41,760 nt of DNA from a virus. This document shows positions 5,673 to 32,720 of the stretch, piece after piece (position 1 is the first letter of the stretch; each line of letters begins with the position of its first letter). Position numbers and translations under genes: made by a program. The notes under the pieces were generated by a model. It had not been told where the DNA came from. It did not search any database and worked only from the letters and a program-made list of their open reading frames with translations. Where the stretch lies: the IMG/VR virus record IMGVR_UViG_3300032249_000636, positions 1 through 41,760 of that record. One strand, given 5' to 3'.

Positions 5673-7850
5673 ATGGCTGATGGAGGCACAGGCTATCGTT
5701 CACGAACTCAATACGAGCGAGACAAGTCAATCGCAAGGTCTGCGACACGGGATGCCAACCGAGAAGAAATTTGGGCGACCCTGAACACTCGTCGTCAACG
5801 ATTGATTGAGGCGGGCGTGAATCCTTCGATGCTGCCGCCGATTCTCGGGGCCAACGGAGCAAAGCCCGACCCGACCGACACGGCGAAAATCGCCACGCAG
5901 TTGCAGGGACTTGAACAACAAAGGGGCATCACTCCCGAGGGGAAAAAGGACGGTTCCACGCAGCAGCAAACGCCACCCGCCGCGCAACAGAAAGTCGCCG
6001 CCGATCAGGCAAGCGCAACAGGCTCGGCGGTGTTGAACTATCCGAAGGGCGGACCACTGGCCGACATCCCTCCTCCGACCGCCCCAAAACAACTGCCCCC
6101 GGCGTTCGCCGCCGTGCAAGCCGCCAACCCGACCTTCACCCCGCAACAGGTCGCCGATGAATTGGTCCGTCAGGAAAAGGCACGCCAGCCCGCTATTCCA
6201 AATAAACCGATGGTTCCGAACCCGGGAATGGCCGCAAGAATCGGGGCGTCAAACCCCATTTTGGCTCCGACAATGGCCGCTGCCAAAGCAACCGAGATAG
6301 CGTTGGGGACAAATGTTACAGGATTGAATCCTTCCGCCTCCACGCCTGCGCCTGCTCCCGCCGCTCCGCCTCCTGCTCCCGTCGCCCCGCCCGCCCCGTT
6401 GGATGGAGTTCCGCAACCTGATTGGCGGACGGGTGTTCCGTTCGAGCGTTCTGCTCCATCGACGCCCGACAACCTGAATCTGGCCAAAGACCCTCTCGAC
6501 TACACGAAACCCGCCGCCGAGCGGGCGTTCACCGGGATGCAGGAGGGCGAAAAAGCCCGAGCCGCAACCGCCGAGGGCAAGACCGCCGCGCCCGCTGGCG
6601 GTGCCCGTTCGGGTGCGCCGAACTGGAAAGAGGGTGCCCCGATGCAGTTCCCGCACGGAACCGAGACGGTTTACAAGGACGGGAGTGGATTTTACACCAT
6701 TGGCCCCGTGTCACAGATGACGGGCCAACCGACCAAACTTCACTTTCAACCGAGTGCCGAGCAGGCCATGACCATCCAGCACGGTGACGACTGGATGAAG
6801 CCAAACCCGGGCGCGTTCGGTAATCTCACCGACGAGGACGCACGGAAGCGCGGGTTGCCCAACGCCCTCGCGTTGCAACGCAACCTCATAATGACCAACC
6901 GGACGCTCGACCAGTTCCCCGAGCGTGGGGCCGTGCCCAATGCTCCGCTTGCCGCCATCCCGCCGCCGCCCGCCGCCGCGCAGCCCACGGCACCCGCTGC
7001 CACCGCCGCGCCCGCCGCGACTCCGCCTGCCGCAGTCACCCCGGCACCGATCGTCGCGCCTACTACTGTCGCCGCCCCGCCGCCGAACGTGATGAACACC
7101 CCTGTTGCCCCGGGTGGAGTGACGACCAACTCGAACCCTGTTCAGCCCGTGACCGTCCCGGGTGCGCCCGCCGCCGCCCCGCTCAACACTCTCCCCGCGC
7201 CCGTTCCCGGCGTGAACACCAATCCCGGTCTGAATCCCAACCTGAACTTTCCGAAACCCGCCGCGACACCGTTTCCCATCGCTCCGCCGCCGACGGGTTC
7301 CGCGCCTGCCGCGCCCGCCGCCCCGGTCGCCGCTGTGCCAAACGGCCAACCTATCAGCGGGGCAAACACTGTCGGGGCACCGTTCACCGTCGCCACGTCT
7401 CCCGGGAGTCTTTCACCGTCGATTGATCGGCAACCGACGCCGCCACTGACCCCCGAACTGGCCGCACAGCGCGATCAGATCCGCCGCGCCCAAACCGCCG
7501 CGAATTTCGGGCAGCACGCAGACACCGCCAAATCCGCCAATGAATCCATGTTTCAAGCTGGTGTTGCTGTCGGCGGGATGAAGCCGCAACCGCAAGGAAT
7601 CGTGATCGGCGGGAACGCGAACAACCCGGGGTTCGGCCAAGGCAACGCCCCTACTCCTGTTACTCCTCCGACAACGGGGCAGGTTCCAATGCCTACCTCC
7701 AAGCCTCTCGATTCCCTTCCGACTCCGACATCAAGCCTTCAATCTGCCGCGCAACCGATGCAGTCCGCCCCACCGACCGCCCCGGCTTTGACGGGTGCTG
7801 TTGACCCCGAGGAGGAATTGCGGAAGAAGAAGCTCGCAGGCATCAAATGA
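5673..7850 (+). CDS. Pro/Ala-rich low-complexity protein, probable virion-associated
   Basis: A 725-residue protein of no recognised family. A charged N-terminal 45 residues (SRTQYERDKSIARSATRD) leads into long disordered Pro/Ala/Thr/Asn stretches (about 75-250 and 415-600). A folded-looking island of about 90 residues lies near 325-400 (ETVYKDGSGFYTIGPVSQM, then QPSAEQAMTIQHGDDW), and the tail is charged (PEEELRKKKLAGIK). The disordered composition resembles scaffold-like or ejected internal virion proteins. Its stop overlaps the start of the giant polyvalent protein as ATGA, so the two are probably made together and may be partners. Confidence 0.7.
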   Translation: MADGGTGYRSRTQYERDKSIARSATRDANREEIWATLNTRRQRLIEAGVNPSMLPPILGANGAKPDPTDTAKIATQLQGLEQQRGITPEGKKDGSTQQQTPPAAQQKVAADQASATGSAVLNYPKGGPLADIPPPTAPKQLPPAFAAVQAANPTFTPQQVADELVRQEKARQPAIPNKPMVPNPGMAARIGASNPILAPTMAAAKATEIALGTNVTGLNPSASTPAPAPAAPPPAPVAPPAPLDGVPQPDWRTGVPFERSAPSTPDNLNLAKDPLDYTKPAAERAFTGMQEGEKARAATAEGKTAAPAGGARSGAPNWKEGAPMQFPHGTETVYKDGSGFYTIGPVSQMTGQPTKLHFQPSAEQAMTIQHGDDWMKPNPGAFGNLTDEDARKRGLPNALALQRNLIMTNRTLDQFPERGAVPNAPLAAIPPPPAAAQPTAPAATAAPAATPPAAVTPAPIVAPTTVAAPPPNVMNTPVAPGGVTTNSNPVQPVTVPGAPAAAPLNTLPAPVPGVNTNPGLNPNLNFPKPAATPFPIAPPPTGSAPAAPAAPVAAVPNGQPISGANTVGAPFTVATSPGSLSPSIDRQPTPPLTPELAAQRDQIRRAQTAANFGQHADTAKSANESMFQAGVAVGGMKPQPQGIVIGGNANNPGFGQGNAPTPVTPPTTGQVPMPTSKPLDSLPTPTSSLQSAAQPMQSAPPTAPALTGAVDPEEELRKKKLAGIK

Positions 7851-10760
7851 AATCCCCGCTCGACGATCTGGTTGCCAGTGGGGCCGAGACGGCTGATGCC
7901 GTCAACAGGCAGATCACGAACCCGCCCTTGCCGGGAGAACTCCCTTCACAGCAGGTCCAACGCGAAGCGCAAGAGGGCATTGTTGAGGACCGACGCAACC
8001 GCATCAAGGCGAGTCAGCTTGCCGCCCGTGGTCTTGCCCCGTATCAGAATCCTGAAACGGGTGCCGTCGCCCCCGTCACCGATCAAACGGGCGTTCCAAT
8101 TACACAGTTCGACTCGAACAACAACATCGGATACGACGCGGCGGGCGCACCCGTGGAAGTCAGCTTTGACCCCTACGGGAACCCCAAGACGAAAGACCCG
8201 TTCGCCGATCTTCCCGCCCTGACCGACGACAAGACGGGCGACATCTACAAGGTCCGCAAAGGTCTTCCGTGGCAATGGCAAGGACGGGACGAGCGAATTG
8301 CCGAAGCTCGCCGACTGGAGGATGAGCAGAAGCAACTGGCGCAAACATCGTCGGCCCTCGGGCGGAAGTTGAGCCTCGACGAACACGCGGAAAAAACCGC
8401 CCTCGCGCAGCACGACAAACTTGCCGAGGATCTCGCCGCAAAAATCCCCGTCATCGCGGGCGAAGGGTCGAGAGAGGACAAAGAGCGTCTCCTCAACGAG
8501 CATTTCGACTCGGAGTTGAAGGGCGCGACGAAGACCGACGGATTCCTCGGGTTCGGCGGAAACCCAACCGAGGACTCGATTCGCCAGCAGCAGGACATCG
8601 AGGCCCGCCGCAAAGAAGCACTCGGGACGCTCAACCAGATTTACACCATTCAGGATGAGATTCGGGCGCGTCGTGACGCTATCGCCGAATCACAGGGGCA
8701 GGCAGTTTCCATCGCCGAGCAACGCCTCAAGGGCAGTCTTCAAGCGGCGGGAATGGATCTTCCCGAGGATACGCTCCGCCAGCAGGCAAAATCTCAAGTT
8801 GGGCCGACCACTCTCGATCTTGGAGAAGGTGAAGGGTCAGTCATCCCGATTCAGAAAACCCCCGGCCAAGTCGCCGCGCAGCAACGTCTTGATTCACTTC
8901 GCCAGCAGGGAGTTGATGTCCCGGGCTCGGTGCGCGATCTGCCAAAGAATCCCACGACGGGCGAGCCCGTCGTTCCATCGAACATCATTCCCGGCAGGGA
9001 TGAGGCGGGAAATCCTCTGCCCGACGGTGAATACGCTGGAGCCGCTCGGGCGATGGAAAAGATTGAGCAGGTTCCGCTGGATTTTTGGGACAAGTGGAAG
9101 GACGTGTCGCAGGACAACCCCGAGCAATTACTCCCGTATGTCGGTAGCGCGAAAGAAATCATCGAACTCGGTTCGGTTGGTGTCGCCGCCTACAAACTCC
9201 GGTCGGGTGAAGCCGATCAGGAAGACCTTGCCTTGCTCAAGGAATTCGTCGAGCGCAACAGTCGGGACACGACGTTCATGTATAAAGTCGGCGCAGTTGT
9301 CGCCGCCCTTCCCGCTTTCGCTGGCGAACTCCTCACAACTGGCGGAACCTACACGGCGGGATCTCGCGTCGGCATCAAGATTGCCAAAGAGGGCATGGAG
9401 TGGCTTGCCACCAAAGCGGGAAAAGAACTCCTCGAAACCGCCGCCGCGAAGTTTGCCGTCAAGGGCGCGGGTGCAATCACTGGCTCGGCGTTGCAAACGC
9501 TTCCGGCAAGTGCCCTGAGAATCAGCGCAGAAACCATGACTCGGATGCTTCCCGAGATGGAGGTCGCCGAGAACGACTTGGGACAACTGGAGGGCGTCAT
9601 CACCGCCGAGGGCGACGACCTGATTCCCGCCCTGACCAAATCGTTTGGCAACCAATACGTTCAGGTCATGTCCGAGCGGACGGGCGGGGCACTCGCTTTC
9701 ATCCCGGGCGCGAAGAAGCTGGAGGCACTCAAACTCGGGTTGATGAAGAAGTGGTTCGACGTGAACCCCAAAGCGACCCCGGGCATGTTCGCCTCACTGG
9801 TCAAGCAGGCGGGGTGGCACGGAGTTATCGGGGAAATGTTCGAGGAGCGTGTTGGCGAAGTCGCGGGCGGTGCCATTGCTCTCGCCGCTGGCGACAAGGA
9901 AAACCGAGACTTCGGCGCGACGGGTTCACTTTTGCGGGGCGACCCCGCCGCCGCCTTGGAACAACTCGCCGTTGAAGGCGTGTCGTTCATGGTTCCCGGT
10001 GCCTTGGGCTCGGGCGTCGGTGTCGTGGGTGCCAAGAAAGCCGAGAAGCGCACCGCCAGCGTGGCACAAGCCTACCAACAGGAAGGCAAGGTCTTCGATT
10101 CGGTCAACACGCTCGAAGGGATCTCGCCCGAGCAAGCCGATCAGGCTGAAAAACTACGTTTTACCGCACAGACCCGTCAACAGGCACTCGCCCTTCCCCT
10201 TGTGTCTCGGCACAAGTCCGCCATCGACGACACACTGGAGGAGGTTGATTTTTGGGGCAAGCAGGACCACACGGGCGCAAAGGCGTTCCTGACCACCCCC
10301 GGCCAGCACGTTTTTGTAGCACAAGAAGTCGGGTCAGGACTCCGCAACGATACGGGAGCCGCTCCGCTTTTCGAGCAGATCGAAAGCAAACTGTCCGAGG
10401 ACGGGATCACCAACGAGGTCCAACGGCAGGCGATGGCGAACCAGATGGTCGGCTCAATGGCTCTGGCGCGGACCATCGACGAAGTTGCCAAGGGAAATCC
10501 CGTCACCGACAAAGCGACCCTCCAGATGCTTCGGACGGCAGGGGTTGTCACGTCGGGCACCAATGACAAAGGCGAAATGCAGTTGGAGGTTGACGCCCGC
10601 GCCCTCCAGATGCTTCCCAAGTCGATTGCCGAGAAATACGCCGACGACCTTGCGAATCTGAACATCAGCAACCGCATGGAACGCGGGGCTATCGAGCCCA
10701 TGCAGGCCATGTCCGAAGCGGGGCGGGTGAAGATCGGAGAAGTCGCCGCCGCCCTTTCGC
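7847..10760 (+). other. Giant protein part 1: internal-virion-like region
   Basis: Residues 1 to about 970. Charged and helical up to 330 (many DE/RK-rich stretches such as EARRLEDEQKQLAQ). Then about 405-790 contains hydrophobic Ala/Gly-rich helices: VGAVVAALPAFAGELL near 480-496, GGAIALAAGD near 676, VPGALGSGVGVVGA near 714. Alternating soluble and membrane-active helices are typical of ejected internal virion proteins of short-tailed phages. No enzyme motif seen. Confidence 0.5.
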
Positions 10761-13700
10761 CTCTGGCAGAGGAGGTCCAAACCCCGGGAACCGAGGAAGG
10801 GGCAGACCCCGGGGGAGAGTTTTCCGACCCGCCCGTGGAACAACCTCCGCAGGCACCCGAAGGCGAACCACCCGTTGAACAACCTCCGATCACCCCCGAG
10901 CCTCCGGTCACTCCCGAGGGTCAACCCCCGGTTCCCCCGGTTACTCCCGAGCCGCCCATCACTCCCGAAGGGGAACCGCCCGTTGTTACCCCCGAGCCGC
11001 CTATCGCCCCCGAGGGTGAGCCCCCTGTCCCGGGCGAACAACCTCCGCCTGTCACCCCCGAGCCGCCCGTTGTTCCGCCGACCGATCAGCCGCCTCCCGG
11101 CGAACCTCCTGTCGCGCCTCCCGCGCCCGAGCCGCAACCCCCGGGCCAACCGCCCGCCGCACCCGAGGGGGAACCTCCTGTTGCTCCCCCGGGCCAACCC
11201 CCTGTTACTCCTCCCGCGCCTGAACCGCAGCCTCCCGGTCCTGAGACGAAAGGCCAGCCCGGGGGAGAACCCCCCGCGCAGCCGCCTGCCGCCCCGCCAG
11301 AGGGCCAGCCGCCGACGGGTGGCCCCGTGACACCCCCGGGCGGGCAAACGCCTCCCAAAGCCCCCAAAGCGCGGCGTCCCATCCCCAAAATTCCCGACAT
11401 CCCTGAAATCGACGACCTGTTCGGTGCTGGCCCCCGCCCGTCCGGTGGAGTGCAGGGTATCGCCCCGCAATCGGCGGAGCCTCCCGTCGATTACAACACG
11501 CCCGAGTTCAAGTCCAAGTTGGCCAAGATCGGCGTGAAGGTTTACCAGAGTGGCGTCACCGAGCCTGCCGACTTCGCGGGAGTCATCTACGACCAGCTTT
11601 TGCGGAACAAGGGCAAGGCCGACGCCGATAAACTCACGGGTTCCATGCTCGGAATTGCGTGGCTGGAGGTTCAGGACCAGAACCCTGACGCGGTTGATTT
11701 CAGTCGCACCGAATTCAATGCCATTTTGGCCGAACTCCGCGACAGCAACGAGGAGGCACCGCCCGGGGAACCTCCCATCGCCCCGCCCGAAGGCGAACCT
11801 CCGGTTGCTCCCCCCGAGGGTGAACCGCCCGCTCCGCCAGAAGGGGAACCGCCCGTTGCGCCCCCCGAAGGAAAGCCACCCGAGGGCGAACCTCCTGTTA
11901 CGCCGCCCGAGGGCAAACCGCCCGAAGGTGAGCCTCCTGTTGCCCCGCCCGAGGGTGAACCCCCGGCACCGCCCGAGGAAAAGCCTTTATTCCCCCACCA
12001 GTGGGGCGAATTGCCGGAAGACGGCGACCGCGTTGTAGTGTCGGGCGAATGGCCTGAGTTGCGGCAGAACAAGTCCCTCTACGGACTCTCGCAACTGACG
12101 GGAACGGTTGTTCGCGCCCGCAACGGCAAGATCACTGTGGATTTCGACCCGAACGACAACGGGCAGTCCTTCCCCGACATCGAAGTGCCCGCTGAGTTTG
12201 TCGCCCCCTACGATCAGGACACCTATCCGTTCCCGCGTGACACGAAGACCCTGAAAGAAATCGACGACTACTACGAGTCGGAACTCAAGGTCATCACCGA
12301 AATTGCCACCCGCAACGGAATCGGGTTTGCTCCTGTTGACCCGAAAGAGCAATCGGATGCCTACTATTGGGGTTTCGACAGGGCGATTCACTTAAACAAG
12401 GCGGCACTTTTGGCGCGGGCCAACATGACCAACACGGATTCGCAAACCCCGCTCAAGTTCATTCAGGCAGTCCTGTGGGAAGAACTCGGTCACGCCCTCG
12501 AACACAAGGCGGCGGGATTCGATTCGGCCAAGATGGCGCAGAACGATGAGTTGGTTTGGCGGGAGTTGGTCAAAAACAACCCGTCCCGCGCCGTGATGAT
12601 TGCAAGCACCTATTCATCGGCGAAAAGCGATTCCTACCTCGGGGCGGAATACGTCAGGATGGTGTTCCAGCAACAGGTCTTGGGATTCCCGACTGGTCAC
12701 ACGGAAAAACTGCCTTCGACCCCGACGCTTCTTCGCATCATGCGGAAGATCCTCGCGTTCCTGAAAAACGCCATCAAGCCCTCGAACCTTCGGACGCAAC
12801 CGATCTTGGAAATGGTCGTGGCCAGAATGACGAGTCTGGTCCGCCAACCCGGGGAGTTGCGGAAGATCACCGACAAATGGGACTACGCAGAGGCGATCAA
12901 GGAGCGAATTCTTGCGGGTGAGAAGTTGACCAACGTGGACGCGAGGAAAATGCGCGAACACAGCAACGTTGACTTCAAGGATGACAAGGAGATGGACGAG
13001 TTCATTGAACTCGGTGCCGTCCGCGCAATGCGAGTCATCGCCGCCGACACGTCGGTTTCGGTCGAGGAGACTTACGACCGTCTCGTTGAAATCTACCAAT
13101 CGCAGCCCGTCCTGAACAACCGCACGTCGGATTCGTCGATTCGTCAGGCTTTCTCGACCCCGCCTCCGCTCGCCTACTACGCGAGCCGCATGGCCAACCT
13201 CAAAGACAAAAACGGAATCGTCGGCGAGATGACGGCGGGAAATTCCGCCCTACTGGTGGAACTCAACCCGAGGACGCAACTGTATCGGGTCAACGAAATC
13301 GACCCCGAGCGTCGGGCGCGGTTGGAGTATCTCGGGTTCGAGGCAACCGGATTCGACGCCCTCATGGAGAAGGTGTTCAACGGGGATCTCGACACGCTTT
13401 TGCTGAATCCCCCGTTTGGCACGCAAAAAGACTCCATGAACGTGAGCAAGCCGTTCACGATCACCGAGGGCGAATACACCCTCACGACCACAAGGCAGGA
13501 CCACTACCTTGCTCTCAAAGCCTTGCAAGAGGGGCTCAAGGATGACGGGCGTGCCGTGCTGATTCTCGGGAGTGTCGGGGCGACAACGGACGAGGGGCGT
13601 AAAATCGACTACGGCGGGAAGCAGTTCGCGGAGTTCCACTTCATGCTGTCCCGTCTCTACAACATCGTCGAACACATCACTGTTGACGGGGCTCTTTACA

Positions 13701-16700
13701 ACCGGATGGGCGCGGCGTGGCCCGTGGATGTCATCACCATTCAGGGCCGCAAGCCGTCCACAAAATACTCGTTGCCGTCCTTCAAACCCCCGACTATGGT
13801 TACGTCGTGGGACGAGTTGCGCGAGCGACTGGCAGAATATGAGCATCCAACCAAAAAACCCGATAAGCCAAGTGGCGGAAGCTCTGGAGGACAACCCGGG
13901 GGAGGTTCTGATGGTTCGATTCGTCGGCCCCCATCCAGACCACAACCTGACGGGAAAGACGGAGGATCTGGAGGGAACCCTGACGGGGATACTTCACAAC
14001 CACCCGAATCAGGGAATGGTGGAAAGAACCCTCAAATACCTCCAACAACTCCAGACGGAACTCCTCCCGTCGAACCCGACGCCGAAGCAAAAGGCGGAAT
14101 ACCAGAACGCGATTCTGGACGAGATGCGGACGCTACTGGACAACCTGTAAGCGGGTTCCAAACTCCCTACACGCCTCTCTCGAAGGCGAAAAAGCCCGAT
14201 GGGATGTTGACTCCCACGGAGTTAAAAACCCCGCAGGAGCGGGCTCTTGCCACGTTGGAGGAAGACGTTGGCGACATCGACGCCTTTGTTGCCCGCGAAC
14301 TCGGTTACGATTTGGGCAAAGTCGTGTTGGACGATTTCAAGGGAAAGAAAATTGGCATCGACTCATTCAAGCAAGTCCGCGAACTCGGGGCCGAACACAC
14401 ATGGAACGAGGGCGACATTGTTCTTGAATTTCGAGACGGAAAGTTGATTGAAGCGTCACGAATTGACGATGTTGAGGAGTTCCTCAACGCCCCCCGATCA
14501 TCCATCAGGTTCATGGTTGGCATTGAAACGGGCATCATGGATGACGCGGCGTTAATGTCCTCGGGGGCACCGTCATTCGACGACCCGAACGCAACTTACT
14601 ACGTTGTCTCCGACCGCACAAAGAACGACCCCAAGAAGTTGTTGGCCCAACACTTCCTCGCCGAGCAGGTTGACTCCATCGCCCTCGCTATCTGGAACCA
14701 CGACCGAGGGCACTCGGTCATTGTCGGGCACCAGACGGGAATCGGCAAAGGCCGCATCGCGGCAGGTCTGATGAAGTGGGCGCGGTTGCGCGGAATGATT
14801 CCGGTCTTTGTGACGCAGAACGAAGGTCTTTACATGGAGATGTTCAAGGACATCGACGACATCGGCGATCACGCCAACGTCACCCCGTTCTTTACCAACT
14901 TGGCCTTGAACCAAGGAGCAGGTCTTTACGATGTCACGGGGTCGCTGTGGAAACCACGGCGCAGCAGGCAGCTTGCTCACTACAACACCATCGTTAGCAC
15001 GGGCGAATTGCCCATGATGGACGTGGTTGAAGCTGTCGATACGTCCACTATCGTTGATGAGGTTGTCGAGGAAACTTCTGACGCCCCGACGGAAGAAGGT
15101 GGCGCGGGAGTTCAGTCCGTCGGCAAAAAGGGCAAGAAGGGCAAGAAAAAGGGTAAGCCGACCGAGCAGACGCAGACCACGCAAAGGCGGGCGAACGTGG
15201 TGTTCACGACCTACTCACAGTTCAACGGTCGCCCCGGCCTGCCGCGTCAGGACGTTCTTTCGGCCATCGGAGAAAAAGCCTTCTTGGTTCTGGATGAGTC
15301 GCACGGTGCCGCTGGCGATAGTCAGGTTGGCGCGTTCATGGTCGGGCTGCTTGGAAACGTCGCGGGCGCGTATTACTCGTCGGCCACGTTCAGCAAAACT
15401 CCCGCCTCGATGGGGTTGTATCACCGCACGACAATGGCGGCATCAGGGGCGAGCCCCGACGAAATCATTGCCACCATGAAGGATGGTGGTCTGCCAATGC
15501 AGCAGGTCATTTCGGAAATGCTCGGCAAGGATGGCGTTTTGACCCGCCTCGAACGCGACTTCGGGACGGTTCGCTTTCACGATCAGGAAGGAACCGAAAA
15601 CAAAGACCGAGACTACGAGGCGGCACGCAACTTCTCGGGCATCACCAAAAAGATTGGCCGATACGATGTCGCCGCCCGCCAGCAAATGCGGACGCTTCAC
15701 AATTGGCTAGGGCAGTTCGGAATCACCGTCGTTGCCGGGACAAAGCCGCAATCGGCGAAGATGGCGTCCAAGGTTCCGTTCGCCAACCTGTATTACAATC
15801 TGGTCAACACCTACGTCTTGGCCCTCAAGGCTGACTCCATTGTGAAGGAAACGATTGAGCGGGTCAAAAGCGGCACCCCCGTCCCGACCGACCCGAAGGA
15901 ACTGGAGAAATACAACGCCGATCTTGAGAAAGACAACAAGCGCATCGCCGTGTTGGAGGCGTTGAGCAACCTGACTCCCGCCGAGGCGATGGAGTTGGAC
16001 ACGCTCAAACGTCGCCGCGAGGGGCAAAAAATCATCATTCAGATTGACCTGACGGGCGAAGCAGGATTGCAGGACATGGCAGGAAGCGGGGCGGACGCCG
16101 ACTTCCGTGAAATCCTGCAACGCTACCTTCGGAATTGCGCCCGCTTCAACCTCAAGTTGCCTCTTGGGCTCGGCGAGGTTGAGGGAAACCTTTTGCAGCA
16201 GCAGTCCGCCCCCGACATCACCCCGTTGCTGATTCGTGCGGGGCGCGACCCCGGCCAAGTCACGAAAGCTGTGGAGGAGTGGCAAACCCTCTGGAACAAC
16301 GCGCAGCGGAATTTGCAGCCCGAACACATGGAGGTCAATCACACCATCGAAAAGGCGAACCTTGGAGACTTCGCCGTTTCGCCGATTGACTACATTCAGG
16401 ACAAACTGGCCGAGGCAGGCATCGCGTCGGGCGACTACACCGGACGAGGCACGGCGGTCAAAGAGGGCAAGATTGTCAGTAAGCACAAGAACACCCGGGG
16501 CGACATGGACGCCCTGAAAAAACGGTTCAACAACAACGACGATTTCAACGTCCTCATCCTGAACCGCTCGGGTGCCGTCGGAATTTCGCTCCATTCATCC
16601 GTCACCGTCGAAAGCCACAAGCAGCGGGTCATGCTCTTGGCTCAACCGTCGCCCGACATCGCGGTGTTCATGCAGACCCTTGGGCGCATTTTCAGAACGG

Positions 16701-19700
16701 GTCAGGTGAACAGTCCTGAATACGTTTTCCTTCGGACTGCACTTCCTGCCGAATATCGCCTCGGCATCATGCTCCGCCGCAAGATTGCGTCACTCAACGC
16801 CAACACGACCAGCAACACCGAAAGCGATGTCTCCTCCGAGATGGAGGCATACGACATGTTCAACGAGTATGGCGACCGAGCCGTTTACGAGTTTTTTAAG
16901 GCGGACCTGATTGATTCGTTCAGAAACCACAAAACGCCCGTGATGGCGGAACTCCCTGAGTTGTTTTCCGACGCATCGCAAGCGGAACTTGATCGAGTTT
17001 TCGGTGCCTACATGGGCACGGGTGGAGCCTTCACCAGTAAAATTACTGGAGCAATGGGCGTCATCGACCCCTACGTTGCCGAAACGTTCTACGATGGCGT
17101 CATTGAGCGGTTCACCAGCACAATCAAGGCGTTGCAGAACGATGGCATCGACCCGTTCTCGACGGCGGCACTTGATTACAAAGCCGAGCCTCTCGGTGCC
17201 GCAGTTCAATTCACGGGTGCCGTTGGTGACAGCACATCCGAATTTGCTCAACCGTCCTTCATTCAGAAGATGAGGTTCAAGTCGGGCAAGGAGCCCGAGG
17301 ATGTCTTCGAGGTTTACAAAGAAGCGTCCGCCAACCGTCGCAGGATTGAAGGACAGTGGGGGAGGCTTGTTGCGCGTGGCGACTTTTCCCTGTGGGATAT
17401 TCAAGGTGTCGCAACCGACCCGTCCGATGAACTCTTGCCCGAGGAAAAAGACGACACGGTTTACACTTGGGGCCAAAGTGATCCGGCCAAAGGCAAGGAT
17501 GGCAAATGGTGGGTTCCAATTTTGGAGAACGCCAAGAACATCAAGAAACCCACCTTGGAAGATTACCGTCGAGTTCTGGACGCCACGGCGGCAGAGCATC
17601 TCGACCGACGCGGGAAGGCGATGACCAAACAGACCCGACAAGGTTTGGAGCAGAAGGTTGAGCGGGCATGGAGGATGGCGCAAACGGCAGTCCGCTTCAT
17701 GTATTCTTCGGACATCTACGCGAAACAACAGTGGATCTACCACGCGGGCACCGGGGCCGACGCCGCAGGGGCGGGCGGAGAAACCGCTTTGGCAATCATT
17801 ACCGACGTTCACTTCAACTTGGAAAAGCCTTTGGCCCCCTCCGAGTCCTACGTCGTCCTCAAGACCAACAACTCCAAGCATCACACCAAGAGACTCCAAC
17901 TCACCATGATGGAGGACCGCTTGAGTGCCTATCACGCCTCGACGGAATACGACACTGGCCGATCTTTCGCTTACAATTGGGAGGAAACCAAAACCGTCGA
18001 GACGGAGCGGTTTGTCATCACGGGCAACCTGTTTAACGGGTTCCGCGAAATGCGGGCTCTCGGGGTGCGGGGCTCCATCGTGAGGTTCACGCAAAAAGAG
18101 GGACCGGAACTCGTCGCCATCGAACTGCCCTCCACGTTTACGGGCGTTTCCGAGGAAATCATCAAGACTCCCGAACGGTTCATCGAAAAGGTTTTGCTCG
18201 AAGGCGTCACCGCAACCATCGCGGAAATCAAGGGCGACAAAACAGGGTTCACTGGAACGCTTTCTTACAACTCGAACTACGACCAAGTGTATTTTGAGGT
18301 CGATACCGACAAGTCGGGCAAGCTGAACACGAACCCCGCCATGATTGCCCTCACCGAAGGCGGCAATGGGTTCTACACTCGGCGCGGTCGTGGCTACCGC
18401 AGCACCTACATTGATCGAGCGAGGGTGGCCGAGTTCTTCAACTTCATCACGGGTGCCCCGTTCAACGCGCAAATCAAGGTGCCTGTCGTCACCACGGGCA
18501 ACGCGCAACCTCTCGGCACCACGTCAGCCAGCAATCCCGCCGTGCAACGGATGCTCGGGATTCAATCCAACGCGCCCCTCTCCGAACGCAACCAGAAGCA
18601 GATCGAGTGGATGAAGCCCCGCGCCACGAAGATGCTCGGTTACGAAGTGAAAGACCCACTCGGGGAACTCCTTCGGAACAAGTTCGACGCCTTTGTTGCT
18701 CTGGCCAAACAATTCGATAAGGAGGTTAGCCCGAAAGAGGGAAAGCAAGCCGTCGCCCCGCAGGGTGTCGCCCCGGCCCCCGAGGTTCTCAAGGTGTCCC
18801 GCAAGGAGGTCAACACCAAGCCGACCGAAGCGCAGAAAGAGGCGGGTAACTACAAGAAGGGGCACGTCACCCTTTCAGGTCTGGACATCACCATCGAGAA
18901 CCCGAACGGCACGCAGCGGACAGGCACCAGCAAGGCGGGCAAGCAATGGTCCGTTACGATGTTTGGCGACTACGGCTACATCAAGGGTTCGGAGGGGCAG
19001 GACAAAGACCACGTTGATGTTTTCATTGCCCCGGGAACCCCCGTCGATTTCGACGGACCTGTTTTCATCATCAACCAGATCAACCCGCAAACGAACCAAT
19101 TCGACGAACACAAGGTCATCATCGGGGCCAAGACCGAGGACGAGGCCCGGGCCATCTACCTCAAGAATTACTCGCCGGGGTGGAAGGGGTTGGCGTCGGT
19201 CGGGGGAATGTATTGGGGTGACTTCGCTCAATGGGCGCGGGGCGGAGGGGCCAAGGCTGGCCCTGCACCGATGTTGATTCCCTTTGGGGAGTCCACGTCC
19301 CCGATGGCCGACGCGACTCATCCTGTGGTCAGCAGGCACGCAACAGACCCCATCACAGGCGAGGGTGGCGACGGGGAAATCAGTGAGTTCGAGATGATCG
19401 AGCGTCAGCCAGTCGTTGTCTCTGAACAACCGACCGCCGAATTCAAGGGGCGGAGGATTGGTCGCCGGGAAATCGTCAGGCAGTTGAGTGCCGTTCTGGA
19501 AGCGGCGGGGCGCAACCTGCCGTTCAGGGTTGGCCGGATGCGCGGGCGGAAGGATGTCACGGGCGTTTTCAAGGAAATGCCCGAGGTTGTCCGGTTGCGC
19601 GAGGCTCTGAGTCTCGACGTGGCGGCACACGAATTAGGACACGCCTTGCAAAAGCTGGTTTACAAGACCATGAAGGCGGGCGCACTCAAGTCCCTCCCGA

Positions 19701-22654
19701 GTGCGGTCAAACAGGAACTCCTCAAACTCGGCAAGAATCTCTACGGGTCGAAGCAACCACTGGCCAGTTACACGGTCGAGGGGTTCGCGGAATTCGTTCG
19801 GATCTACCTGACCCAAGACAACGCCGCTCTGGTTGCCCCGGCCACGCACGATTTCTTCATCAACACCGTCATGTCGGTGTATCCGAAGGCTCGGGAGCAA
19901 CTCCTCATCGCCAAAGACCTGTTCGACCAGTATCGGGCGCAGGGCATCGAAAACGCGACCGCCGCCAAGATGGTTGACCCGCTCAAGGTCCGCACCCGCC
20001 TCCAGAAGTTCATGTCGATCTTCAACCGGGACGAGTTGTTCAAGAACTGGATCGAAGAATTCAAGCCGATCAGGGACTTGTCGGAGCAGGCCAGCGAACT
20101 TTTGAAACGGGCAGGACGGGGCAAGTTGGACATCGAGAACGACCCGTATCTCATCGCCTCTGTTCGCCGGGGCCAAGAGGGGCACGTCGCCCGCCACATG
20201 GTTGAAAAGGGCATGATGGACTTCAACGGCAATCCGGCAGGCGCAAGCCTCAAAGAAGCGTTGGCCCCCGTCGAGAACCAGATGGAGCAGTTCACCCTGT
20301 TCCTTTGGGCTCACAGGGCGATGGAGCGTCTCGGGTTCGACATCGACAAGGACACGAAAGAATGGGTTCGCGCCACCGATGAAAACGGGGTGCCCAAACC
20401 CTCCAGAAATCCCGGCATGACCGAGGAGGACGCCCGCTTCCTGATTGCGGAACTCGGGAAGAATCCGAAGTTCAACATCGCCGCGCAGAAGGTTTGGGAG
20501 TGGAACGCGGGCGTGATGAACTACGTCAGGCAGGCCAGCCCGAGCATGGCGACCATGCTTGACCGCATCGAGTCCTCCTCGAAGTTCTACGTCCCTCTCC
20601 GCCGATTTTTCGAGGACGACGAGATCCAAACGGCCAAGGCTCACCTGAACGCCAAGTCGGGAAATCCCCTCCAGAATTTCAGGGGTTCCGGTCGAGACAT
20701 CATCGACCCGATTCCTGCCCTCCTCCAGCACACCGAACGGTTGGTTGCTCTGGCTCACAAGCGGCAGGTCATGGACGCCATCATTCGCCTGTCGAGCATC
20801 TCGGGGCTCGGGTTCCGCGTGGAAGAAGTTCCCCGTGGAATGGTCCGCAACTCTCTGACAATCGGGCAGATCAAGAAGCAGTTGGAGCAACTTGGCCTCG
20901 ACTCCGACCAGTTGGATCAGGTCGAGGAGGATGCCCTCCTGAACTTTTTCAGCCCTGCCCTCATTCCCAAGGGGAACGACCCGATCATCTCCTACACGCA
21001 GAACGGCAAGACCAAGTGGTATTTTGTCGAGCCCCGCCTCTACGACGCCTTGCAGGGGTTGGAGGTTTACCGCTTGCCCAAGATTGCCGATTTCTTCCTC
21101 GGGATGCCTGCCCGCCTGTTCCGCCTCGGGACGACCGGACTTCGGGCAAGTTTCTCCTTGTTCACGAACCCTGTCCGCGATCTTCCGACTTTCCTGATGC
21201 AGACGCAGAGCAGGGAAAACAACCCCGGGACCATGCTCGGTCATTGGGCATCCTCTCTCGCCGCCCTCGTCAACCCGATGAGATTGACGGGTGTTGAGGA
21301 CAAGTGGATTTCGCAGTTCGACCGCTTCGGGGTGCAGGTTGGCCAACCTCTCGGGGTGGACATGCAAATCGCTGCCACGTCGCACCGTCGCATGTATCAC
21401 GGCATGACGGAAAAGATCGTCAATCACCCCATCGAAATGCTCCGCGAACTGTTGAGCGTCACCGAAGCGGCACCGCGTATCGCGGAAATGAAACTCATGG
21501 CGAAAGAAGTCGGGTGGGATGGCGAGTCTCCTCTTTCACAGCGGCAGGCGTTGGCCATGAGTCTCGCCGCGAAGCGTGTCACTGTGGACTTCATGGCGGC
21601 GGGTGCCGTCGCCAAAAAGGTGAATCAGGTCATGCCGTTCTTCAACGCCAGCGTGCAGGGCATGAGACTGTTCGCCCGCGCCCTCAAGGAGAACCCGTCC
21701 CGAGCCGCCATGATGGGATTCTCGGTCCTGACCATCCCGACCCTCCTCCTCTGGTATATGAACAAGGACGAGGACTGGTATAATGACCTTCCTTGGGCTG
21801 ACCGCTTCCTGTTCTTCAACGTGCGGGTCGGCAACCAACTTCTCAAGATCCCGCGCCCGTTCGAGTATGGCAACTTCTTCTCGGCGGTGCCCGAGGCGAT
21901 CTTTGACTCGTTCTACAAGCAAGACCCCGAATCGGCGAAGGCGGTGTTCAACCATATCATCAAAACGTCGAACCCCACGTCGTTGCCGCCGCTTCTGAAC
22001 GCATGGTATCAGGACGCCGCGAACAAGGTTGAGTTCTTCGACCGCCCGATTGTGCCGCAACAGGAACTCAAGTTGTATCCCGGCGAGCAACGCGGTCCCT
22101 ACACTTCCGACCTGTCCAAGTTTCTTGGAGACGTGTTCCCCAAGACTGTCAGCCCACGCCGTCTCGACGCCGCGATCTACGCTCTTACGGGCGGTGCGCT
22201 CGGTGACTACACCCGCGACATGGAAACGATGGGCAAGGCTCTCGGACTCATGCCGTCCACCCGCGAACTCGAACCTTCTGACATCCCTGTGTTCGGTCGT
22301 GCCTTCGCACGGGGAGGGGTGGAAAGCGGCAGGAGTCTTGCGATCGACAAGTTTTTCACAGCATGGGAGGAAGCCAACCGTCGCCAGAAAAGCCGGATGT
22401 TCCCTGAAACTCCCGCCGATGAACAACGCCGCAAAAGACTGGCCGACGCCTACAAGGCCATCAAGGTTCTGAACGCCTCCGCCCGCATGGCGAGGACGAT
22501 GGAACAACGCCAACTCATCAATGCGAGGATTCGTGATGTCGCGCAGTCCGCGCTTGAACGTGCGCCAAAAGCCTCAAGCATCTCGGCCATGCCGTATTCA
22601 CAGGCACCCAAAAAAACCACTGACAACCGCGTGATGTTCACCGGATTCAACTGA
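7847..22654 (+). CDS. Giant polyvalent (DarB/strawberry-notch-type) virion protein, 4935 residues
   Basis: One frame of 14.8 kb, over a third of the window. Order of parts: N-terminal internal-virion-like region (1-970) with hydrophobic helices; Pro-rich repeats (about 982-1190 and 1303-1380); degenerate peptidase (E1545-E-L-G-H1549); adenine-methyltransferase fold (G1793 motif I, N1854-P-P-F); low-complexity linker (about 1998-2102); strawberry-notch helicase (Walker A K2301, D2483-E-S-H, Q2943..R2950); inorganic-pyrophosphatase-like domain (about 3655-3815); metallopeptidase H3928-E-L-G-H3932; LPD38-like C-terminus (about 4405-4830). Polyvalent proteins and P1 DarB are known to be injected with phage DNA and to protect it from restriction; the same role is inferred here. 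Nearly 5000 residues is extreme even for this class. Alternatively it may be processed into several products, for example by its own peptidase. Confidence 0.9.
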   Translation: MKSPLDDLVASGAETADAVNRQITNPPLPGELPSQQVQREAQEGIVEDRRNRIKASQLAARGLAPYQNPETGAVAPVTDQTGVPITQFDSNNNIGYDAAGAPVEVSFDPYGNPKTKDPFADLPALTDDKTGDIYKVRKGLPWQWQGRDERIAEARRLEDEQKQLAQTSSALGRKLSLDEHAEKTALAQHDKLAEDLAAKIPVIAGEGSREDKERLLNEHFDSELKGATKTDGFLGFGGNPTEDSIRQQQDIEARRKEALGTLNQIYTIQDEIRARRDAIAESQGQAVSIAEQRLKGSLQAAGMDLPEDTLRQQAKSQVGPTTLDLGEGEGSVIPIQKTPGQVAAQQRLDSLRQQGVDVPGSVRDLPKNPTTGEPVVPSNIIPGRDEAGNPLPDGEYAGAARAMEKIEQVPLDFWDKWKDVSQDNPEQLLPYVGSAKEIIELGSVGVAAYKLRSGEADQEDLALLKEFVERNSRDTTFMYKVGAVVAALPAFAGELLTTGGTYTAGSRVGIKIAKEGMEWLATKAGKELLETAAAKFAVKGAGAITGSALQTLPASALRISAETMTRMLPEMEVAENDLGQLEGVITAEGDDLIPALTKSFGNQYVQVMSERTGGALAFIPGAKKLEALKLGLMKKWFDVNPKATPGMFASLVKQAGWHGVIGEMFEERVGEVAGGAIALAAGDKENRDFGATGSLLRGDPAAALEQLAVEGVSFMVPGALGSGVGVVGAKKAEKRTASVAQAYQQEGKVFDSVNTLEGISPEQADQAEKLRFTAQTRQQALALPLVSRHKSAIDDTLEEVDFWGKQDHTGAKAFLTTPGQHVFVAQEVGSGLRNDTGAAPLFEQIESKLSEDGITNEVQRQAMANQMVGSMALARTIDEVAKGNPVTDKATLQMLRTAGVVTSGTNDKGEMQLEVDARALQMLPKSIAEKYADDLANLNISNRMERGAIEPMQAMSEAGRVKIGEVAAALSPLAEEVQTPGTEEGADPGGEFSDPPVEQPPQAPEGEPPVEQPPITPEPPVTPEGQPPVPPVTPEPPITPEGEPPVVTPEPPIAPEGEPPVPGEQPPPVTPEPPVVPPTDQPPPGEPPVAPPAPEPQPPGQPPAAPEGEPPVAPPGQPPVTPPAPEPQPPGPETKGQPGGEPPAQPPAAPPEGQPPTGGPVTPPGGQTPPKAPKARRPIPKIPDIPEIDDLFGAGPRPSGGVQGIAPQSAEPPVDYNTPEFKSKLAKIGVKVYQSGVTEPADFAGVIYDQLLRNKGKADADKLTGSMLGIAWLEVQDQNPDAVDFSRTEFNAILAELRDSNEEAPPGEPPIAPPEGEPPVAPPEGEPPAPPEGEPPVAPPEGKPPEGEPPVTPPEGKPPEGEPPVAPPEGEPPAPPEEKPLFPHQWGELPEDGDRVVVSGEWPELRQNKSLYGLSQLTGTVVRARNGKITVDFDPNDNGQSFPDIEVPAEFVAPYDQDTYPFPRDTKTLKEIDDYYESELKVITEIATRNGIGFAPVDPKEQSDAYYWGFDRAIHLNKAALLARANMTNTDSQTPLKFIQAVLWEELGHALEHKAAGFDSAKMAQNDELVWRELVKNNPSRAVMIASTYSSAKSDSYLGAEYVRMVFQQQVLGFPTGHTEKLPSTPTLLRIMRKILAFLKNAIKPSNLRTQPILEMVVARMTSLVRQPGELRKITDKWDYAEAIKERILAGEKLTNVDARKMREHSNVDFKDDKEMDEFIELGAVRAMRVIAADTSVSVEETYDRLVEIYQSQPVLNNRTSDSSIRQAFSTPPPLAYYASRMANLKDKNGIVGEMTAGNSALLVELNPRTQLYRVNEIDPERRARLEYLGFEATGFDALMEKVFNGDLDTLLLNPPFGTQKDSMNVSKPFTITEGEYTLTTTRQDHYLALKALQEGLKDDGRAVLILGSVGATTDEGRKIDYGGKQFAEFHFMLSRLYNIVEHITVDGALYNRMGAAWPVDVITIQGRKPSTKYSLPSFKPPTMVTSWDELRERLAEYEHPTKKPDKPSGGSSGGQPGGGSDGSIRRPPSRPQPDGKDGGSGGNPDGDTSQPPESGNGGKNPQIPPTTPDGTPPVEPDAEAKGGIPERDSGRDADATGQPVSGFQTPYTPLSKAKKPDGMLTPTELKTPQERALATLEEDVGDIDAFVARELGYDLGKVVLDDFKGKKIGIDSFKQVRELGAEHTWNEGDIVLEFRDGKLIEASRIDDVEEFLNAPRSSIRFMVGIETGIMDDAALMSSGAPSFDDPNATYYVVSDRTKNDPKKLLAQHFLAEQVDSIALAIWNHDRGHSVIVGHQTGIGKGRIAAGLMKWARLRGMIPVFVTQNEGLYMEMFKDIDDIGDHANVTPFFTNLALNQGAGLYDVTGSLWKPRRSRQLAHYNTIVSTGELPMMDVVEAVDTSTIVDEVVEETSDAPTEEGGAGVQSVGKKGKKGKKKGKPTEQTQTTQRRANVVFTTYSQFNGRPGLPRQDVLSAIGEKAFLVLDESHGAAGDSQVGAFMVGLLGNVAGAYYSSATFSKTPASMGLYHRTTMAASGASPDEIIATMKDGGLPMQQVISEMLGKDGVLTRLERDFGTVRFHDQEGTENKDRDYEAARNFSGITKKIGRYDVAARQQMRTLHNWLGQFGITVVAGTKPQSAKMASKVPFANLYYNLVNTYVLALKADSIVKETIERVKSGTPVPTDPKELEKYNADLEKDNKRIAVLEALSNLTPAEAMELDTLKRRREGQKIIIQIDLTGEAGLQDMAGSGADADFREILQRYLRNCARFNLKLPLGLGEVEGNLLQQQSAPDITPLLIRAGRDPGQVTKAVEEWQTLWNNAQRNLQPEHMEVNHTIEKANLGDFAVSPIDYIQDKLAEAGIASGDYTGRGTAVKEGKIVSKHKNTRGDMDALKKRFNNNDDFNVLILNRSGAVGISLHSSVTVESHKQRVMLLAQPSPDIAVFMQTLGRIFRTGQVNSPEYVFLRTALPAEYRLGIMLRRKIASLNANTTSNTESDVSSEMEAYDMFNEYGDRAVYEFFKADLIDSFRNHKTPVMAELPELFSDASQAELDRVFGAYMGTGGAFTSKITGAMGVIDPYVAETFYDGVIERFTSTIKALQNDGIDPFSTAALDYKAEPLGAAVQFTGAVGDSTSEFAQPSFIQKMRFKSGKEPEDVFEVYKEASANRRRIEGQWGRLVARGDFSLWDIQGVATDPSDELLPEEKDDTVYTWGQSDPAKGKDGKWWVPILENAKNIKKPTLEDYRRVLDATAAEHLDRRGKAMTKQTRQGLEQKVERAWRMAQTAVRFMYSSDIYAKQQWIYHAGTGADAAGAGGETALAIITDVHFNLEKPLAPSESYVVLKTNNSKHHTKRLQLTMMEDRLSAYHASTEYDTGRSFAYNWEETKTVETERFVITGNLFNGFREMRALGVRGSIVRFTQKEGPELVAIELPSTFTGVSEEIIKTPERFIEKVLLEGVTATIAEIKGDKTGFTGTLSYNSNYDQVYFEVDTDKSGKLNTNPAMIALTEGGNGFYTRRGRGYRSTYIDRARVAEFFNFITGAPFNAQIKVPVVTTGNAQPLGTTSASNPAVQRMLGIQSNAPLSERNQKQIEWMKPRATKMLGYEVKDPLGELLRNKFDAFVALAKQFDKEVSPKEGKQAVAPQGVAPAPEVLKVSRKEVNTKPTEAQKEAGNYKKGHVTLSGLDITIENPNGTQRTGTSKAGKQWSVTMFGDYGYIKGSEGQDKDHVDVFIAPGTPVDFDGPVFIINQINPQTNQFDEHKVIIGAKTEDEARAIYLKNYSPGWKGLASVGGMYWGDFAQWARGGGAKAGPAPMLIPFGESTSPMADATHPVVSRHATDPITGEGGDGEISEFEMIERQPVVVSEQPTAEFKGRRIGRREIVRQLSAVLEAAGRNLPFRVGRMRGRKDVTGVFKEMPEVVRLREALSLDVAAHELGHALQKLVYKTMKAGALKSLPSAVKQELLKLGKNLYGSKQPLASYTVEGFAEFVRIYLTQDNAALVAPATHDFFINTVMSVYPKAREQLLIAKDLFDQYRAQGIENATAAKMVDPLKVRTRLQKFMSIFNRDELFKNWIEEFKPIRDLSEQASELLKRAGRGKLDIENDPYLIASVRRGQEGHVARHMVEKGMMDFNGNPAGASLKEALAPVENQMEQFTLFLWAHRAMERLGFDIDKDTKEWVRATDENGVPKPSRNPGMTEEDARFLIAELGKNPKFNIAAQKVWEWNAGVMNYVRQASPSMATMLDRIESSSKFYVPLRRFFEDDEIQTAKAHLNAKSGNPLQNFRGSGRDIIDPIPALLQHTERLVALAHKRQVMDAIIRLSSISGLGFRVEEVPRGMVRNSLTIGQIKKQLEQLGLDSDQLDQVEEDALLNFFSPALIPKGNDPIISYTQNGKTKWYFVEPRLYDALQGLEVYRLPKIADFFLGMPARLFRLGTTGLRASFSLFTNPVRDLPTFLMQTQSRENNPGTMLGHWASSLAALVNPMRLTGVEDKWISQFDRFGVQVGQPLGVDMQIAATSHRRMYHGMTEKIVNHPIEMLRELLSVTEAAPRIAEMKLMAKEVGWDGESPLSQRQALAMSLAAKRVTVDFMAAGAVAKKVNQVMPFFNASVQGMRLFARALKENPSRAAMMGFSVLTIPTLLLWYMNKDEDWYNDLPWADRFLFFNVRVGNQLLKIPRPFEYGNFFSAVPEAIFDSFYKQDPESAKAVFNHIIKTSNPTSLPPLLNAWYQDAANKVEFFDRPIVPQQELKLYPGEQRGPYTSDLSKFLGDVFPKTVSPRRLDAAIYALTGGALGDYTRDMETMGKALGLMPSTRELEPSDIPVFGRAFARGGVESGRSLAIDKFFTAWEEANRRQKSRMFPETPADEQRRKRLADAYKAIKVLNASARMARTMEQRQLINARIRDVAQSALERAPKASSISAMPYSQAPKKTTDNRVMFTGFN
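10790..11420 (+). repeat. Pro-rich repeat block I in the giant protein (PEGEPPV/PEPP units)
   Basis: About 210 residues built from PEGEPPV, PEPPVTP, APEGEPP and PGQPPVTPP units. Codons vary freely between copies while the peptide pattern is kept, and GC at third positions stays high, so the protein sequence appears selected. Probably an extended spacer between modules. Confidence 0.8.
11755..11985 (+). repeat. Pro-rich repeat block II in the giant protein (APPEGEPPV units)
   Basis: About 77 residues of near-perfect APPEGEPPV/TPPEGKPPEGEPPV repeats. Between blocks I and II is a folded region (about 11440-11750) with PEFKSKLAKIGVKVYQSGV. A short SH3/KOW-like segment follows block II (about 12000-12230, DGDRVVVSGEW, then SQLTGTVVRARNGKITVDF). 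Confidence 0.8.
12240..12860 (+). other. Giant protein part: degenerate metallopeptidase-like domain
   Basis: Around residue 1545 the sequence VLWEELGHALEHKA has the surroundings of an HExxH zinc peptidase helix. The first histidine is replaced by glutamate (E1545-E1546-L-G-H1549), so zinc binding is doubtful. An intact HELGH copy occurs later in the same protein at residue 3928. Confidence 0.4.
13060..13830 (+). other. Giant protein part: DarB-like N6-adenine methyltransferase domain
   Basis: About residues 1740-1995. FSTPPPLAYYAS near 1767 precedes motif I (G1793-E-M-T-A-G-N-S), the acidic NEIDPERRARLEYLGF segment and motif IV N1854-P-P-F-G. This is the type of methylase domain fused ahead of helicases in DarB-like proteins; S-adenosylmethionine is the expected cofactor. 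Confidence 0.75.
13839..14150 (+). CDS. Nested gene in the +1 frame of the giant ORF, 103 residues
   Basis: A complete ATG-to-TAA frame inside the giant gene. Its product looks like a natural soluble protein: MSIQPKNPISQVAEALED, then GEVLMVRFVGPHPDHNLTGK, TLTGILHNHPNQGMVERT and a long C-terminal helix (KQKAEYQNAILDEMRTLL). By hand count, GC at third codon positions is about 72% (74 of 103) in this frame, like the rest of the genome, but about 32% in the giant frame over the same stretch. There the giant product is a Gly/Pro/Ser-rich linker (GGSSGGQPGGGSDG). So the nested frame appears to be the older coding frame. No Shine-Dalgarno sequence is evident; the start region ATATGAG resembles the ATGA junctions used elsewhere. 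Function unknown. It may be expressed as its own protein, or be a relic of a separate gene read through when the flanking genes fused. Confidence 0.65.
   Translation: MSIQPKNPISQVAEALEDNPGEVLMVRFVGPHPDHNLTGKTEDLEGTLTGILHNHPNQGMVERTLKYLQQLQTELLPSNPTPKQKAEYQNAILDEMRTLLDNL
14157..16850 (+). other. Giant protein part: strawberry-notch/DarB-type SF2 helicase
   Basis: About residues 2104-3001. It begins near FQTPYTPLSK, as in strawberry-notch proteins. Walker A is T-G-I-G-K2301-G-R, motif II is D2483-E-S-H2486, and the second lobe has SGAVGISLHSS and motif VI Q2943-TLGRIFRTGQ. A Lys-rich insert (GKKGKKGKKKGK, near 2426) lies between motifs I and II. Expected activity: ATP-dependent translocation on nucleic acid, in DarB-like proteins linked to protection of incoming DNA. 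Confidence 0.8.
17640..18480 (+). other. Giant protein part: helicase-associated C-terminal region
   Basis: About residues 3265-3545, strand-rich (HAGTGADAAGAGGETAL, SESYVVLKTNNSKHHTKR, ERFVITGNLFNGFREMRALG). It resembles the conserved region that follows the helicase core in strawberry-notch proteins. No catalytic residues identified. Confidence 0.4.
18810..19290 (+). other. Giant protein part: inorganic-pyrophosphatase-like domain of polyvalent proteins
   Basis: About residues 3655-3815. EAGNYKKGHVTLSGLDITIE, then NPNGTQRTG, DYGYIKGSEGQDKD and D3719-K-D3721-H-V-D3724-V-F match the InPase domain described in polyvalent proteins. The Asp triad corresponds to the metal-binding DxDxxD cluster. 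It could remove pyrophosphate made by another enzyme, or act on a different phosphate substrate. Confidence 0.7.
19440..19860 (+). other. Giant protein part: HELGH zinc metallopeptidase domain
   Basis: About residues 3865-4005. H3928-E-L-G-H3932 followed about 50 residues on by VE3978GFAEF, the gluzincin arrangement of two histidines and a glutamate as zinc ligands. Could cut host proteins, or the giant protein itself, after entry. Confidence 0.7.
21060..22330 (+). other. Giant protein part: LPD38-like C-terminal domain
   Basis: About residues 4405-4830. FRLGTTGLRASFSLFTNPVRD, then VTVDFMAAGAVAKKVNQVMP, PFFNASVQGMRLFARAL, a membrane-like helix (VLTIPTLLLWYM) and RPFEYGNFFSAVPEAIFD match the large polyvalent-protein-associated domain LPD38, which usually ends such proteins. 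Its function is unproven, perhaps virion attachment or membrane passage. Confidence 0.65.
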
Positions 22655-32633: not shown

Positions 32634-32720
32634 AAACCGTCGCTCCAAAACATCGAATCAGCCCTTGTGGCCTCATTGGTGCCTTCTCTCTCAGTCACAA
32701 AACACAACCACACAAGCACT

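Follow-up and report, generated by a model that had tools for sequence, protein, structure and literature searches.

Three groups are among the closest described counterparts of the locus analyzed here. The DNA methylase-helicase dyad of polyvalent proteins, with DarB of phage P1 as its archetype, is believed to have incoming DNA as its target (Iyer et al. 2017, PMC5512222). Hidden HNH endonucleases of the ShiLan type are out-of-frame homing-endonuclease genes embedded in the DNA methylase genes of phages (Arsenault et al. 2025, PMC11855218). Finally, overprinted genes are described from viruses, for example p22/p19 of Tombusvirus (PMC11044054; review, PMC8227390).

The present locus has features of each. 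Like the DarB dyad, the product of its host gene is a giant protein of many domains in which an adenine methyltransferase (MTase) is joined to a helicase of the SF2/SWI2-SNF2 type; unlike it, the locus carries a nested gene that belongs to a clade with helicases of the Strawberry-notch type and of which we found no mention in PMC5512222. As in the ShiLan systems, a complete out-of-frame gene overlaps part of a phage methylase gene, and the methylase frame stays open across that part. However, the gene described here sits in an interdomain linker, its product contains neither an HNH nor any other known domain, and it is present in nearly all members of its clade with few losses, whereas the presence of ShiLan-type genes is patchy. 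In common with the overprinted virus genes, one nucleic-acid stretch would specify two proteins in different frames, but here the carriers include DNA phages and plasmids as well as bacterial genomes from several phyla, and the gene has a single origin and is broadly retained. No report of an overlap in an MTase-helicase linker was found in the literature searched, the coverage of which left out most subscription papers. Overlapping genes as such are a known phenomenon; the nested protein family is undescribed.

A +1 open reading frame in the linker of a giant MTase-helicase gene

The window, by which we mean the whole 41,760-nucleotide stretch of viral DNA that was analyzed (IMG/VR record IMGVR_UViG_3300032249_000636), contains one polyvalent open reading frame (ORF) of 4935 amino acids (positions 7847 to 22654, a gene of 14.8 kb; this and all features below are on the plus strand unless stated otherwise). 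An adenine-MTase-like part with an NPPFG motif (12884 to 13775) was delimited from alignment A1 and from homology to MTase-helicase fusions. Domain matches placed the N-terminal part of a Strawberry-notch type helicase (Pfam AAA_34) at 14711 to 14881, Helicase_C_4, the C-terminal domain of Strawberry notch homologues, at 16517 to 16936, an InPase domain at 18827 to 19237, and LPD38, a large polyvalent protein associated domain, at 21770 to 22291. These four domains and the NPPFG motif identify the host gene product as an MTase-helicase polyvalent protein. Structural genes adjoin the polyvalent gene, with an SU10-like portal protein gene at 22656 to 24923 and a weak Phage_capsid_3 match at 32667 to 34292. 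On the minus strand, two long ORFs of 572 and 597 amino acids lie opposite the giant gene (16790 to 18508 and 19634 to 21427) and are probably shadows of its high GC content at third codon positions (GC3).

Between the MTase and the helicase, the giant frame encodes a linker rich in Gly, Pro, Ser, and Asp (13776 to 14110) with a GC3 of 0.41. The initial annotation had called a 103-codon gene in the +1 frame of this region and had pointed to opposite GC3 values in the two frames, and both observations were confirmed. The +1 frame is open from the ATG at 13839 to the TAA ending at 14150, and over this interval the GC content at codon positions 1, 2, and 3 is 0.64, 0.32, and 0.71 in the nested frame versus 0.71, 0.64, and 0.32 in the giant frame, the giant-gene mean being 0.62, 0.44, and 0.72. 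The giant-frame GC3 of 0.32 is the minimum among all 103-codon stretches of the giant gene (mean, 0.72; standard deviation, 0.077). Because two further Pro/Gly-rich linkers of the same protein hold GC3 values of 0.63 and 0.59, low complexity alone is insufficient to produce the dip. Long Pro/Glu repeat linkers of the giant protein (PPEGEPPVAP...; 10775 to 11359 and 11750 to 11977), which served as a control, have a normal GC3. A likelihood comparison of the frames, based on the codon usage of the phage itself, favored the +1 frame over the giant frame only in 103-codon segments starting at 13745 to 13937.

Two in-frame ATG codons are candidate starts. The first, at 13839, would yield a product of 103 amino acids; it has no Shine-Dalgarno sequence, lies downstream of 92 further open codons in the +1 frame, and occupies the same alignment position as the nested start codon of L008, the nearest relative (Y-E versus H-E among the giant residues EYEHP/THENP). 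The second, at 13911, would yield a 79-amino-acid protein (MVRFVGPHPDHNLTGKTEDLEGTL..., 13911 to 14150) and is preceded, at a distance of 4 nucleotides, by a strong Shine-Dalgarno-like GGAGGT (13901 to 13906). The GC3 dip also extends over the interval between the two (13839 to 13910), and RNA structure near the nested start was unremarkable (z = +0.49).

The length of the window ORF is ordinary: shuffling the synonymous codons of the linker gave about 121 open codons compared with 130 observed (p = 0.78), and longer +1 open stretches exist at other places in the giant gene. Length was therefore dropped as evidence for this copy, and the case for it rests on its codon signature and, mainly, on its relatives.

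The nested ORF recurs in nearly all relatives

A tblastn search with the MTase-helicase part returned one Bacteroides phage and many plasmids. On six-frame inspection of the linkers, the Bacteroides phage and two cyanobacterial plasmids showed a +1 ORF that coincided with a GC3 dip, and the elements from Pseudomonas, Acinetobacter, and Yersinia showed no such combination. Profile-guided scans then contributed 80 loci from IMG/VR and 80 from GTDB genomes. Among the 155 loci with a measurable linker, the window included, nearly all had a +1 ORF of 90 to 215 codons together with a lowered giant-frame GC3. A second scan, based on helicase motifs, added 47 unused loci, 46 of which had the ORF; the exception, L268, has a linker of 63 residues. 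Altogether, about 190 of 202 distinct homologous loci, drawn from IMG/VR, GTDB genomes, one phage, and plasmids, carry a 90- to 215-codon +1 ORF in the linker that joins the MTase to the Strawberry-notch helicase, and the frame was +1 in each case examined in detail. The earlier observation is correct, and more is there than it stated. Since the identical +1 offset recurs in about 190 loci, the pair of compensating local indels that might have mimicked such a pattern in a single sequence is excluded.

The nested gene has been lost at three loci (L127, L157, and L268), and because the giants there do without it, it is not strictly required. Scanning for the helicase with the window sequence alone found no relatives, and the two-sequence alignment A3 as a query retrieved only L008. 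None of the annotated records checked has the nested gene annotated.

In three loci from cyanobacterial genomes (L106, L124, and L152), the giant is interrupted near the linker, with the nested ORF intact in L124 and L152. We considered them as candidates for an ancestral arrangement of separate MTase and helicase ORFs and rejected them, as they are giants broken by a frameshift or a stop. An IS66-type insertion interrupts the MTase-helicase gene of L193, which lies on Vibrio anguillarum plasmid p292.

In relatives, the nested frame is constrained and the giant linker is not

We compared the evolution of the two frames among the relatives. In 604 of the 724 pairs in which both could be aligned over at least 80 residues, the linker was less conserved than the nested product. 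Of 456 pairs, 437 had their linker substitutions concentrated at nested position 3 (giant position 1), and in all 456 the flanking MTase and helicase had their peak at giant position 3. Because the pairs share phylogenetic history and their alignment followed the nested frame, the counts are inflated and give the direction of the effect only. The cleanest of the selection estimates came from 25 pairs sharing no sequence, in which changes were counted by their effect in both frames. The dN/dS was 0.41 for the nested frame, given changes nonsynonymous in the giant frame (95% bootstrap interval, 0.34 to 0.48), versus 1.42 for the giant linker, given changes nonsynonymous in the nested frame (1.15 to 1.71). 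In the relatives, these comparisons show that amino-acid selection acts on the nested frame.

The giant frame, too, stays open. The linkers contain no giant-frame stop, compared with 313 expected under shuffling of nested synonymous codons, a figure helped by our requiring the MTase and the helicase in one ORF, which only 3 of 160 loci, apparently broken genes, failed. Conversely, the +1 frame is open at p < 0.05 under synonymous shuffling at many loci, the window locus not being among them. As the giant frame is maintained alongside a constrained alternative frame, both appear to be used in the family: in the relatives, two frames open beyond chance are combined with purifying selection on the alternative one. 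The view of the initial annotation that the amino-acid sequence of the linker is a by-product of the nested reading agrees with its lower conservation, and no relative conserves the linker while its nested frame is broken.

At three loci (L040, L071, and L079), the nested proteins are 93 to 96% identical and the flanking MTases far more diverged, hinting at linker recombination or very strong constraint.

Start signals of the nested gene are selected at the codon level

Across 109 representatives, a Shine-Dalgarno sequence precedes the first nested ATG in 66% of cases versus 24% for internal ATGs, and 6-base matches occur at 34% and 3%, respectively. The typical site, AAGGAG, is written in Lys-Glu codons of the giant (D-E-L-K-E-K-L). 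AAG-GAG was chosen at 56 of 66 such Lys-Glu sites, compared with 22 expected from the codon usage of each gene, and the choice holds even in genes that prefer AAA and GAA (in L048, the AAG and GAG fractions are 0.14 and 0.13). This bias shows selection on the nested start signals at the codon level in the family. The Bacteroidales-type representatives in the set of 109 lack a Shine-Dalgarno sequence, and a few found later have a match; Shine-Dalgarno use is rare in the Bacteroidales group, in line with these starts. Relatives thus carry start signals of their own for the nested gene, and in the window such a signal is present at the inner ATG, 13911, only.

The nested products form homologous families with a confidently predicted fold

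The nested products group into homologous families, the largest cluster having 81 members from phages, cyanobacteria, and Desulfovibrio, with W6, P8, and L113 conserved. A scan of 73 family members gave no consistent match in Pfam, PHROGs, NCBIfam, or PADLOC, and a sequence search of the PDB with the family gave none. The absence of the protein from every family library tried is explained by annotation pipelines, which forbid long nested genes.

The initial annotation had seen in the nested product a protein of normal complexity with helices. For the product of L018, a family A protein (WxP proteins), AlphaFold2 with 70 aligned sequences returned a confident model (pLDDT, 92.1; pTM, 0.85) in which short N-terminal strands are followed by a helical domain. 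Foldseek comparison of this model with the PDB and BFVD gave nothing with an E value below 1, and a second alignment with the 167 best PDB chains gave no Z score of 2 or more. The model would allow, but does not prove, that the fold is new. For the window product, the alignment was shallow and the pLDDT was 60, and we set this low-confidence model aside as evidence. Searches with the window product by tblastn in phages, by a peptide-pattern scan of viral contigs, and in Pfam and PHROGs gave no match. Comparison with the nested families by HMMER, hhalign, and phmmer was not significant (best E value, 1.6), although with one of three family profiles the product ranked first among 662 ORFs.

The window product has no significant sequence similarity to family A, and it shares with that family the MTase-helicase linker, the +1 frame, and the start position of the nearest relative, L008. 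Because similarity is not significant and the model is poor, it is assigned to the family by its position, frame, and start and by where it falls on the tree, and we infer that the window copy is a positional homologue within that family rather than a sequence member.

A possible partner of the methylase-helicase dyad

The segment linking the MTase to the Strawberry-notch helicase is very probably dual-coding. The giant frame would supply a disordered Gly/Pro/Ser tether between two enzyme domains, in which sequence matters little, and the +1 frame would encode a small acidic protein of about 80 to 180 amino acids (79 or 103 in the window). The nested protein is presumably made in the cell, from the same giant mRNA, by internal initiation at the nested ATG, usually with its own Shine-Dalgarno site.

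As its gene cannot be separated from the dyad gene, the nested protein is best explained as a partner or regulator of the dyad. It may be a co-produced accessory or regulatory subunit of the giant MTase-helicase, binding the DNA-acting dyad or holding it in check while phage or plasmid DNA is being transferred. This partner role is deduced only from the location of the gene, and we put it forward as a plausible but tentative proposal. The broader reading, a hidden family of unseen fold that is obligately overprinted in Strawberry-notch MTase-helicase linkers of phages, plasmids, and several bacterial phyla and acts as an unrecognized partner subunit controlling DNA-entry machines, is slightly more tentative still.

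The main rival proposal is that the nested protein does not bind the giant and is an independent counterdefense factor, for instance an inhibitor of restriction enzymes that acts as an acidic mimic of DNA. Anti-restriction proteins of the Ocr and ArdA type are small and acidic. The nested products are likewise small, found in an anti-restriction setting, and strongly acidic (median pI, 4.5; median net charge, -10; 94% negative; n = 190), and DarB-type MTase-helicases are themselves anti-restriction proteins (PMC5512222). However, neither the sequence nor the fold of the nested product was found to resemble a known structure, DNA mimics included, and the acidity is partly common to the giant linker (median charge, -5). 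An independent factor would also be expected to occur somewhere as a free-standing gene, and none was found in 292 cyanobacterial and 398 Pseudomonadota genomes. We consider this proposal unlikely, though deserving of serious attention.

If a partner role holds, the nested protein would provide a likely second component for the DarB-like methylase-helicase dyad. The gene is a deep and testable case of a conserved overlap outside small RNA or single-stranded DNA viruses, with a well-predicted fold (L018) that has no match among solved structures, and it can be tested in a carrier, the laboratory cyanobacterium Picosynechococcus PCC 7002 (plasmid pAQ6, locus L196). Bacteroides phage BS-TP4 (L002) is a further carrier in culture. 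GC3 dips in "disordered linkers" of giant phage proteins suggest themselves as a general screen.

The nested gene probably arose after the fusion

The initial annotation had regarded the nested gene as an older free gene that once lay between separate MTase and helicase genes. The constraint on the nested frame, the freedom of the giant linker, and the longer linkers of carriers would fit such a history, but the remaining evidence does not support it. Whole genomes yielded few family matches, and each of the 12 whose context was checked lay in an MTase-helicase linker in the +1 frame. The sampled cyanobacterial genomes contained five matches, all nested, and the only match in the Pseudomonadota genomes was a known nested locus; neither in these genomes nor near nested-less plasmid genes was a standalone homologue found. 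Five nested-gene-family matches occur in the single genome of Nodosilinea sp. LEGE 07298, the source of L100.

Fused genes without the nested gene occur on proteobacterial plasmids, namely those of Pseudomonas, Vogesella, Shewanella, Cupriavidus, Acinetobacter, Vibrio, and Variovorax (including L004), and the linkers of these homologues are mostly 56 to 95 residues long. P1 DarB, considered as a carrier, was rejected, as it neither matches the helicase profile nor shows a nested ORF under a GC3 dip. In a tree of 119 MTase-helicase sequences, the nested-less fusions lie outside the carrier clade, and three changes, one gain (branch support, 98) and two losses, account for the distribution, a polarity that hinges on the midpoint rooting of the tree. 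On the giant's tree, the nested gene has a single origin, and in the family it was found only inside the MTase-helicase linker. An older free gene is thus improbable; it is more likely that the fusion came first and that the nested gene arose once afterwards, by overprinting or by insertion, perhaps of an already existing gene, and was then long retained.

Readings without internal initiation or translation

Two further readings can be given very little weight. Ribosomal frameshifting into the +1 frame would produce a truncated MTase with the nested protein as its tail, for which the open codons above ATG 13839 and the missing Shine-Dalgarno sequence there leave room in the window. Stops just upstream of the nested ATG argue against such a fusion in the relatives: an in-frame stop lies within five codons in 92 of 144 loci, immediately before the ATG in 39, and many of the starts have a canonical Shine-Dalgarno sequence.

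Equally remote is an untranslated nested frame, in which a disordered linker rich in Gly, Pro, Arg, and Asp yields a long +1 ORF with high GC3 simply because giant position 1 is GC-rich; the ordinary ORF length and the equality of nested GC3 and giant GC1 in the window agree with it, but the other Pro/Gly linkers of the same giant show no comparable dip, relatives conserve the nested frame and not the linker and include a confidently folding product, and for the family it is refuted by the position-3 peaks, the AAG-GAG choice at selected Shine-Dalgarno sites, and the dN/dS values.
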